From Propionibacteriaceae bacterium (GTDB lineage: Bacteria > Actinomycetota > Actinomycetes > Propionibacteriales > Propionibacteriaceae), in the NCBI GenBank assembly GCA_031261485.1, contig JAISJO010000091.1:62001-126000 (forward strand): DNA of 64,000 bases, in the 5' to 3' direction. The number at the start of each line of letters is the position of its first letter. Positions within the stretch are counted from its first letter, which is position 1. The position numbers were made by a program, and so were the translations under genes. Shown piece by piece: positions 57,735 to 61,351 of the stretch. A model generated the notes under the pieces. The model ran no database searches. It was not told the DNA's origin and saw only the letters and a list, made by a program, of their open reading frames with translations.

Positions 57735-59984
57735 TCACGCTTCCCTGTTCACGCAAGCTAGGACGTCCCCGAGTCCCAACCACCACTGGTCGAGCGGGCG
57801 CTGGTGCTCCTGGTCGGTGGAGGCCATCGCGGTCGCCATGTCCGTGAATCCGATGCCTTCGGGCCCTGACCCCACGCACGTGACCGCCCGTGAATGCGAT
57901 TCCATCTCAACGGCGAGCCTCGTCATGGCGGCGTCCACAAAACGGGTGGCCAGTAGCCGGTCGGCAGGGGTGGGGGAGCCACCCTGTTGGATATGGCCAA
58001 TGACCATCGTGCGTGTGTCGTAGCGCCCGTGGCCTTCTTCGTCCATCATCCTCGCCAACCCATCAGTGGTGTAATTGGCGTTGGCGTTCTCGTTGCGGAC
58101 GGCTAGGAACAATTTACGTCCCTGAGTGTCGAAGGAATGGTTCGCCCACTCGATATCTTGTCTCAGTTTGTCGAGGGTAATACCTGTTTCATTGAGGTAA
58201 ATCTGCTCCGCGCCCGACGCCAACCCGCCCATGAGCGTGAGGTATCCACAATCTCGCCCCATCGTCTCAATGACAAAGCATCGATGACTCGCAGAGGCCG
58301 ACATCTTGATCTTGTCGAGGCAGTCCACGACAACGTTGAGTGCTGTGTCCGCGCCGACAGTCAGGGCCGTGCCTGGTAGGTTATTGTCAATTGTCGCAGG
58401 GACGCACACGATGGGGACCTGGAGGGCCGGGTACCTCCCCCGTTCCGCCAGCATCAACTGGACGCCCTGGTAAGCCGACCAGCCGCCAATGACCAATAAC
58501 CCCTCAATCTGATTGTCTTCCAGGCTGCGGGAGATGGAGTACAACTCCTCTACCTCGGGGACGTGGCGCCTCGTCCCGAGCACGGCCCCGCCCTCCTGGT
58601 TCCACCCGTCCACGTCTTTCCAGGTCAGCTCTGACATTGTTCCATGGGCGAGGCCAACGAATCCGTCACGGATGCCCATAACCGAGAACCCGCGCGAAAT
58701 ACCTAGCCAGGTCGCAGTTTTCACCGCCGTGTTCATCCCGGGAGCCAGCGCGCCCGCGTGCAAGATACCAATTCGGCGGGCATTGGGGGCGGCGGTCACT
58801 CGCTGAGGGGCGGACAGTTCGGTGAAGACGCGAGTGAAATCCTCAAACTCGCATCCACGCAGTTCGACGGCTCGGTTATACTCCCCGGCCTGGATGATCG
58901 TGGGAACGGATCGAGTGTCGGCCACGGCCTGGACCAGTGGCACGTCGATGGCCTGCTGGCCCTTGAACCCGAAGACCGGGCCAGGGGCGTCGGGGGCCGC
59001 GGTCAGAACATGACATGTTGCCGCGTACCCGAGCCAGGTGGAGGCCCAGCGGTCGTACGCCGACGGGGTGCCGCCACGCTGCACATGCCCGAGGATGGTC
59101 ACCCGTGCGTCTTCGTGCAGTTTCTCCTCAATCGCGCGACAGACGTAGTCAGCGCTGATATCCGCACCATCGCGGGTCGTCGCACCTTCGGCGAGAATGA
59201 CGATGGAGTCCTTGCGGCCCGCCTCACGGGAACGGTGAAGTTGCGCGCACATGGCGTCCTCCCAGCCGTCAGCCGGGGGCAGTTCGGGCACGAGGACGTA
59301 ATCGCATCCGCCCGAGATGGCAGCGGCCAAAGCGAGGTACCCACAGTGGCGGCCCATGACCTCGACAACGAAGCAGCGTTGATGGCTCGCGGCAGTTGAA
59401 GCAATGGCATCAATGGCATCCTGGATGCGGTGCAGAGCCGAGTCCACACCGATAGTCATATCAGTCCCAACAAGGTCATTGTCTATGGAGCCGACCATCC
59501 CCGCGAAGATGAGGTGCGGGTGCGCGTCGGCCAGTTCCTGAGTTATCTCACCCTGGGCGACCAGCTCTTCCATGAGGGAGGCCCACTCTTCCGAAAAGGC
59601 ATTGAGCCCTGTCAAAGACCCATCGCCGCCAATGACAACCAGTCGGTCGATACCATTGCTCACGAGGTTTCTGGCCGCTTTCAGCCGTCCTGCGCGTTCC
59701 CGAAACTCGGCGGACCGGAAAGTACCAATAACAGTGCCCCCACGGTTGAGGATGCTCGACACATCCTCCCAGACCATCTCCCGAATGGAGTCGTCCCCGT
59801 CGATCATCCCCTGGTACCCCTCGGCAATCGCGTAAGGCGTGGCCCCCGCGAACAGCGCCGTACGCGCAACAGCCCGCAGCGCCGCATTCATGCCCTGAGC
59901 ATCCCCGCCCCCGGTCATGACGCCGATCTTCACCCCCCGTCCCAATCCCGCAATCTGGTCAGGAGTCAGTGCTAATGGTCGCAT
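57735..59984 (-). CDS. 6-phosphofructokinase, tandem-domain eukaryotic-type
   Basis: ATG 59984 (MRPLALTPDQIAGLG) with TATGAT ending six bases upstream; 749 residues, about twice a bacterial PFK. The N-half (~15-395) has 'MTGGGDAQGMNAALRA', 'GGDGSLTG' (119) and catalytic 'GSIDND' (165-170). The C-half (~400-749) repeats the fold with 'VIGGWSAYQGVQLM' (498) and 'PATIDNNLPG.ALTVGADTALN' (529), where the catalytic Asp is Asn. A catalytic N-half with a degenerate C-half is the arrangement of animal and fungal PFK-1, in which the C-half is regulatory. Makes fructose-1,6-bisphosphate; allosteric control is inferred. Confidence 0.92.
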   Translation of the reverse strand: MRPLALTPDQIAGLGRGVKIGVMTGGGDAQGMNAALRAVARTALFAGATPYAIAEGYQGMIDGDDSIREMVWEDVSSILNRGGTVIGTFRSAEFRERAGRLKAARNLVSNGIDRLVVIGGDGSLTGLNAFSEEWASLMEELVAQGEITQELADAHPHLIFAGMVGSIDNDLVGTDMTIGVDSALHRIQDAIDAIASTAASHQRCFVVEVMGRHCGYLALAAAISGGCDYVLVPELPPADGWEDAMCAQLHRSREAGRKDSIVILAEGATTRDGADISADYVCRAIEEKLHEDARVTILGHVQRGGTPSAYDRWASTWLGYAATCHVLTAAPDAPGPVFGFKGQQAIDVPLVQAVADTRSVPTIIQAGEYNRAVELRGCEFEDFTRVFTELSAPQRVTAAPNARRIGILHAGALAPGMNTAVKTATWLGISRGFSVMGIRDGFVGLAHGTMSELTWKDVDGWNQEGGAVLGTRRHVPEVEELYSISRSLEDNQIEGLLVIGGWSAYQGVQLMLAERGRYPALQVPIVCVPATIDNNLPGTALTVGADTALNVVVDCLDKIKMSASASHRCFVIETMGRDCGYLTLMGGLASGAEQIYLNETGITLDKLRQDIEWANHSFDTQGRKLFLAVRNENANANYTTDGLARMMDEEGHGRYDTRTMVIGHIQQGGSPTPADRLLATRFVDAAMTRLAVEMESHSRAVTCVGSGPEGIGFTDMATAMASTDQEHQRPLDQWWLGLGDVLACVNREA

Positions 59985-60297
59985 GGTTCCATCATAGGGC
60001 GCGTGGTACTGGTTGCACGGAGTAGGCGCCCCCCAGAAACCCTCAGTCATCCTCCAACAAGAAGTCCGGGATGCGCCGAGAAACAATGCTTCCACTTGGA
60101 TGTTCAGCCGACTTACTTGGTGAGTACGTTCAGCGGCTCCGCGATTCCCAGGAGAGTGGTAAATACACTTACCAGAATTGGCCAATTTGGGGATTCTGGA
60201 AAGTATATTTACCAGAATCGCCGCAGCGGCCGAATGGACGCGCCCTTGGGGTGGTCCGAGAGCGACGAAGCCGCTCTCAGTTCCTAGGAGCCCATCC
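59985..60297. other. Intergenic region upstream of pfk
   Basis: Just over 300 bases with no supported gene. Near pfk it holds the TATGAT -10; further out are the TTACCAGAAT repeats at 60158-60218. The N-terminal extension of the track's PFK ORF runs through here but has no homology-like composition. Confidence 0.6.
60158..60218. promoter_or_regulatory. TTACCAGAAT repeats with alternating orientation
   Basis: GGTAA-ATACAC-TTACC (60158-60173) flows into CCAGAAT; ATTCTGG is at 60193-60199 and TTACCAGAAT again at 60209-60218. Half-sites 15-20 bases apart suggest a repressor operator. It is ~175 bases before pfk and ~80 bases past the DsbA-like gene end. Confidence 0.5.
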
Positions 60298-61287
60298 TTA
60301 CCCTAGGCTCTTGAGGCTGGAGAGCAGGCTTTCAGCGGTGATCTTCTGGACGGGGCTGCCGTGGGCCACGTCAGATTGAAGGTTGAAGTTCACTTGCTGG
60401 CCGTTGACGAAGATGGTGGGCGTGCCCTTCACCTCGGCGGCGACTCCTTCTTGCTCCATCTCGGTGACCGCAGCCATTGTCGCCTTGGCGTCGTAGCATG
60501 TCTGGAATTGGGCGAGACTGGCACCGGTGATCCCTGCTTGGCTAGCGAAAGTGTCGCGCAGTTGTGCGTCGGTGTACCCCACACCCTCCTGAGGTTGGTT
60601 GGCGAAGATTGCCGAGTGATAGTCCCAGAAGCGGCCAACCTCGTTGGCGCAGAGGGCACCAACAGACGCGCGCGCCGACGAATCGTTCTTGATGAGTTGA
60701 TCACCAATGATCGTCCGAAGATGAATACGCAGGTCGATGTCGCCGGACTCGCTCAACGAATGGAGCGCTTCGCCATAGATATCCTCTAGGCGCTCGCACC
60801 ATGGGCATTGGTAATCAGTATGAATCTCCACGATGATCGCGCCGTCTTCTACCTTGTCAGGGTTCACTGCGACGTAGTTTTGGAAGTAGGTCAGCGCAGG
60901 TGCAGCAGCGGTGGTCTCGCTGCCGGAAGAGGCGGACGTTGTCTCGACAGCGGGAGGTTGGGTGCCGCCTGCCGGGAGACCGCGCATGACGACTACGAGC
61001 AATGCGATGAGAAGCCCCAGGGCGATTGCACCCACAATGACCAGCGTGAGCGACAGAGTGCGGATGGTCGAGTCGCGTGGGTCGCGCGGCGCATTGGGGT
61101 AAACCTGCACCGCGGTTGTCAAAGTCTCCGACCCGCCGCCCGATGAGTCGGAAGGAGGTGTCGGTGTGCCGGATGTCGAGGACTCCGCCGTTTCCGTCTC
61201 AGGCTCGTGACTATCAGACAGGTCTCGTGATACCGCTTTCGCTTCGTTGGACTTGGCCGCTACCTGCGACCTCTTTACCTTCGCCAT
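60298..61287 (-). CDS. Membrane-anchored DsbA-family thiol oxidoreductase
   Basis: ATG 61287 (MAKVKRSQVAAKS) follows AAGGGAG; 329 residues. A charged, Ser/Thr-rich cytoplasmic region, one helix (LTLVIVGAIALGLLIALLVVVM, ~80-105) and an external thioredoxin-like domain with catalytic 'DYQCPWCERLE' and cis-Pro 'KGTPTIFVNGQQV'. It probably oxidises or reshuffles disulfides in exported proteins, possibly the Cys-containing LRV ectodomains (inference). Confidence 0.9.
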   Translation of the reverse strand: MAKVKRSQVAAKSNEAKAVSRDLSDSHEPETETAESSTSGTPTPPSDSSGGGSETLTTAVQVYPNAPRDPRDSTIRTLSLTLVIVGAIALGLLIALLVVVMRGLPAGGTQPPAVETTSASSGSETTAAAPALTYFQNYVAVNPDKVEDGAIIVEIHTDYQCPWCERLEDIYGEALHSLSESGDIDLRIHLRTIIGDQLIKNDSSARASVGALCANEVGRFWDYHSAIFANQPQEGVGYTDAQLRDTFASQAGITGASLAQFQTCYDAKATMAAVTEMEQEGVAAEVKGTPTIFVNGQQVNFNLQSDVAHGSPVQKITAESLLSSLKSLG

Positions 61288-61351
61288 GGCTCTCCCTTGT
61301 GACACACCAACGGTACCAGTTGGTCTCTAGGCTGTGCTGGGAGCACGGGTT

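Follow-up and report, generated by a model that had tools for sequence, protein, structure and literature searches.

The usual bacterial 6-phosphofructokinase (PFK) is a single-domain enzyme of ~320 residues. A doubled form is represented by the model TIGR02478 (NCBIfam, eukaryotic two-domain ATP-PFK, 6PF1K_euk), the description of which presumably mentions a bacterial exception, Propionibacterium acnes. In a 2025 review of the superfamily, the doubled gene is given as a eukaryotic feature, and the bacterial family is absent from the passages of the review on which we draw (PMC12203962). The window analysed here (the whole stretch of 64,000 nucleotides, from a Propionibacteriaceae bacterium) carries a gene for such a doubled enzyme. 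Very probably, the product is an ATP-dependent PFK of the eukaryotic two-domain type that belongs to an old actinobacterial family, has its fusion in common with animal and fungal PFK-1, and does not derive from the sampled animals or fungi.

The open reading frame runs on the minus strand from an ATG at 59984 to a stop at 57735 and comprises 749 codons; the initial annotation gave the coordinates correctly and omitted the strand. A longer version of the frame, started by TTG, reaches 60185 and comprises 816 residues. The closest homologue (L015) has only ~13 residues upstream of the alignment start, and the ATG is therefore preferred. The protein scores 945.5 bits against TIGR02478 (curated cut-off, 708.4 bits), covering profile positions 2–739 of 744, and is matched by PF00365 in two stretches with a total of 615 bits. 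Human PFKL is collinear with it over residues 9–741 (E 1.2e-204), a match that chance does not explain. The match is near full length for the human liver, muscle, and platelet enzymes and ends at about residue 685 for yeast PFK. An AlphaFold2 model, computed from an alignment of 48 proteins (the window protein and related loci), has a mean pLDDT of 93.6 and a pTM of 0.93. In the PDB, it is best matched by R-state human PFKL (8w2g; TM 0.96, rmsd 1.5 Å), with 44% identity over the structural alignment. The window protein truly belongs to the known two-domain PFK family (UniProt 'eukaryotic two domain clade E'), as had been proposed from its motifs, and the quoted motifs GSIDND (residues 165–170), IGGWSAYQG (499–507), and PATIDNN..VGADTALN (529–550) are all present. 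The features of the locus are collected in Table 1.

Table 1 Features of the two-domain PFK locus (positions in the window).
Feature	Position	Strand	Remarks
Two-domain ATP-dependent 6-phosphofructokinase gene	57735..59984	(-)	749 aa + stop; TIGR02478, PF00365, model
N-terminal half, predicted catalytic, residues 1-393	58806..59984	(-)	E. coli PFK catalytic and fructose 6-phosphate ligand positions kept
GSIDND catalytic motif, residues 165-170	59475..59492	(-)	general base D168 = E. coli D127
GGDGSLTG ATP-site motif, residues 119-126	59607..59630	(-)	Gly where PPi-dependent enzymes have Asp
C-terminal degenerate (putative regulatory) half, residues 402-749	57738..58781	(-)	ATP site lost, sugar-phosphate ligands kept
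GGWSAYQG, residues 500-507	58464..58487	(-)	degenerate remnant of ATP-site GGDGS motif
D533-N-N535 (E. coli D127/D129)	58380..58388	(-)	Asp at general-base position, Asn at 129
Two near-identical 22-nt palindromic sites	60157-60178, 60197-60218		TGGTAAATACACTTACCAGAAT, TGGAAAGTATATTTACCAGAAT; core TGGTAA-N6-TTACCA
DsbA/thioredoxin-like protein gene	60298-61305	(-)	same strand as PFK, upstream; PF13462, PF01323

The two-domain form is common in the family and the phylum of the window organism and is no oddity there. It occurs in 148 of 199 genomes of the family, in 25 of 397 genomes sampled from the phylum, in 7 of 395 genomes drawn from the window's own class, and in half of those from a second actinobacterial class (33/66). 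Carriers include complete single-contig genomes; those with names are Propionibacteriaceae metagenome assemblies, Arcanobacterium, Actinotignum, and Actinobaculum. None of 14 control genomes has a two-domain PFK above the cut-off, the viral contigs searched contain no relative, and the plasmid search returned, among the matches listed, single-domain enzymes. The initial annotation had presented the form as unusual for a bacterium; the form is real, but it is not exceptional in this lineage.

Sporadic two-domain PFKs (L037 in G512, L105 in G857, and one in G981) occur in a family of the window's own class in which most sampled members are without the form. L037 branches within clade A, which consists mainly of sequences of the second class, and this placement suggests transfer between actinobacteria. 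Two second-class genomes have both a two-domain and a TIGR02482-type single-domain PFK (L032 with L081, in G301; L042 with G387:C23), and the L081 enzyme groups with the other single-domain enzymes in the tree of halves. In the single-contig genomes G204 (L106) and G047 (L107), the halves are contiguous with one frameshift, near residues 362 and 282, respectively, which points either to faulty assembly or to a broken gene. A gene split into two proteins was considered for both and rejected, the contiguous halves differing in reading frame only. The two halves are also in different frames in G189 (L108).

Upstream of the PFK gene, the two palindromes lie 40 bp apart, ~170–235 bp from the start codon. 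The pattern has no other copy in the genome and none in the loci of other organisms examined; the two sites may together serve as operators for a dedicated regulator. The neighbouring DsbA/thioredoxin-like gene has no evident link to PFK. A conserved operon was rejected as well: of the neighbours in the window, a histidine kinase alone recurs, in two related loci.

The N half retains, in E. coli numbering, D103, G104, G124, D127, D129, and R162, together with M169, R171, E222, R243, H249, and R252. Residue T125 is replaced by Ser, a substitution common to all two-domain N halves. Across 48 bacterial homologues, S166, I167, D168, N169, and D170 of the window protein are invariant. Gly at positions 104 and 124 is the mark of an ATP-dependent PFK, and the N half has Gly at both, the PPi-PFK signature of Asp 104 and Lys 124 being absent. 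With the catalytic residues kept and the donor site of the ATP type, the N half is assigned as the catalytic one, in agreement with the earlier proposal. Judged by its residues and its family, it would convert ATP and fructose 6-phosphate to fructose 1,6-bisphosphate and ADP.

The C half has lost its ATP-site positions, which are variable (GGDGS has become GGWSA). The sugar-phosphate ligands R473, R568, M575, G576, E632, and R658 are invariant in the 48 bacterial homologues, and H664 is conserved at 98%. Six of the eight ligand positions are thus invariant, compared with 39 of 350 positions across the whole half (hypergeometric p 3e-5). The pattern of kept ligands has the appearance of the eukaryotic F′ site as given in the relevant passages of the review (PMC12203962). 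At positions 127/129, the C half has Asp/Asn in the window protein and clade B (the actinomycete clade), mainly Asn/Asp in clade A, and Ser/Asn in animals and yeasts. On sequence grounds, the C half would be best described as a dead copy unable to bind ATP that retains the pocket known as the F′ site in animal and yeast PFKs. In this pocket, fructose 6-phosphate, fructose 1,6-bisphosphate, or a different sugar phosphate would bind and act as an allosteric activator. The earlier suggestion that this half is degenerate and able in principle to bind an effector fits the lost ATP site and the invariant pocket.

The initial annotation recommended a search for a second PFK in the genome, and two more are present, one group-III-like and one of the PPi type. 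The former (376 aa, with G104 and K124) lies near mixed group III and scores under the cut-off of that model. The latter (414 aa; NF005121, 707 bits) has the motifs GGDDT and PKTIDND. Taken with the window PFK, the two indicate that the genome encodes ATP-dependent steps and PPi-dependent ones. To go by the title of a 2004 report by Meurice et al. (cited in PMC2909200), P. freudenreichii reportedly has ATP- and PPi-dependent steps as well, with a PFK called 'atypical ATP-dependent'.

The presence of a PPi-type gene elsewhere in the same genome, together with the fact that propionibacteria are known for a PPi-type PFK (PMC2909200), could be taken to mean that the window PFK is itself PPi-dependent and of ordinary bacterial descent, an outcome against which the two-domain proposal had been set. 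This is very improbable: PPi dependence is rejected on the donor-site residues, Gly 104 and Gly 124 being those of ATP enzymes, whereas the PPi-type enzyme of the genome has its own signature motifs. Ancestry was addressed with the phylogeny of both halves that had been suggested, rooted with single-domain outgroups and including three human and four yeast sequences (two yeast species) from PDB alignments. Bacterial and eukaryotic N halves fall into one clade (100/100), the C halves likewise into another (100/100), and each bacterial half groups with the matching animal and yeast half, indicating that a single duplication-fusion underlies the bacterial and eukaryotic enzymes. The halves of the bacterial protein do not branch with each other, as they would after a lineage-specific duplication. 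An independent duplication-fusion in bacteria, convergent with the architecture in eukaryotes and one of the options raised at first, has in its favour solely that single-domain enzymes are normal in bacteria. It is refuted by this topology and runs counter to the degenerate C-half features common to both lineages, including the change of Arg (as in E. coli) to Gln at position 252; we regard it as next to impossible.

Full-length sequences give a tree in which a 100/99 split divides eukaryotes from bacteria. For the direction of descent, both halves were held to one root in joint AU tests. Roots inside the eukaryotes, which would nest the bacterial genes in the sampled animals or fungi, are rejected (p-AU 0.004–0.03). 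Of the earlier suggestion of a transferred gene, the part that concerns a source within these groups falls, and a deeper transfer, in either direction, is left standing. The bacterial genes would represent an old actinobacterial lineage, the fusion having arisen either in a bacterium or on the stem lineage of eukaryotes. The root between eukaryotes and bacteria is the best one under LG+F+G4 and is never rejected (p-AU 0.33–0.79); under C20, it is better by 2.1 lnL in the smaller data set. This root under LG+F+G4 and the patchy taxonomic spread in bacteria favour a single capture by an ancient actinobacterium from an early or unsampled eukaryote, such as an amoebozoan or a stem opisthokont. We regard such a capture as possible, though less likely than not, for under C20 with more taxa (85 rows) the better position for eukaryotes, by 3.4–5.7 lnL, is next to clade B, clade A lying outside. 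In addition, at two positions fixed in the outgroup, eukaryotes agree with clade B and differ from clade A (T141S in the N half and D129N in the C half), and members of the family occur in at least two bacterial classes. The same three observations favour a duplication-fusion in Actinomycetota from which the ancestor of animals and fungi got its PFK-1, and the C-half tree also joins eukaryotes to clade B with clade A outside (96/83). However, bacterial monophyly is not rejected, either in the joint tests or for the C half alone (p-AU 0.116), and the N half alone gives support of 39/21 only. The C-half root branch carries 1.55 changes per column, and a long-branch effect is possible. An actinobacterial origin is plausible, though short of probable, and is held tentatively. 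The three remaining roots, including those with eukaryotes sister to or nested in the actinobacterial family, are not separated by the tests.

Two aspects of the locus are of lasting interest: the polarity of the fusion and the state in which the regulatory pocket is found. It may be, and we put it forward with reserve, that the fusion occurred in Actinomycetota, that animals and fungi inherited the fused enzyme, and that the regulatory pocket predates fructose 2,6-bisphosphate signalling. Should the fused enzyme prove ancestral in bacteria, the timing of PFK-1 doubling given in textbooks would have to change. The bacterial C halves would then be natural regulatory pockets from before, or without, fructose 2,6-bisphosphate, with three residue states to compare (Asp/Asn, Asn/Asp, and Ser/Asn). 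The bacterial two-domain PFK can help to date and place the fusion.

Compared with animal and fungal PFK-1, the window protein has the same collinear two-domain layout, the same arrangement of a catalytic N half and a C half with lost ATP site and kept pocket, and the same Gln at C-half position 252. The C-half 127/129 pair is Asp/Asn in the window protein and Ser/Asn in the eukaryotic enzymes, and C-half position 171 is Arg instead of Gly. The alignment with human PFK-M stops at residue 750 of 780 in the human enzyme and at residue 743 of 749 in the window protein, indicating that the latter is without the ~30-residue C-terminal tail of PFK-M; it ends shortly past the QWWL motif. The C-half position that corresponds to E. 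coli 127 is Ser in seven of seven eukaryotic sequences and Asp533 in the window protein. We take this position to be Ser724 of the yeast alpha subunit. In yeast mutagenesis, Ser724 is reportedly required for activation by fructose 2,6-bisphosphate, and Asp at this position abolishes activation. In a further difference from the animal and fungal systems, none of 27 carrier genomes, the window's own included, gave a match to PFK-2 (PF01591) in a profile search without a positive control above the cut-off. The sequences thus argue against fructose 2,6-bisphosphate as the effector. Because of the Asp at the Ser724 position and the lack of a PFK-2 match in these genomes, the effector would be another sugar phosphate.

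Among bacterial enzymes, the two-domain PFKs of Propionibacteriaceae, Actinomycetaceae, and the second class are orthologous to the window protein, with identities of up to 72% within the genus and ~44–63% beyond it. Those of clade A differ in having Asn/Asp, not Asp/Asn, at C-half positions 127/129. Single-domain bacterial ATP-PFKs (TIGR02482; E. coli, Geobacillus) agree with the N half in their catalytic residues, and the fold of one half resembles one of their subunits; they consist of one domain, however, and branch outside both halves of the two-domain enzymes.
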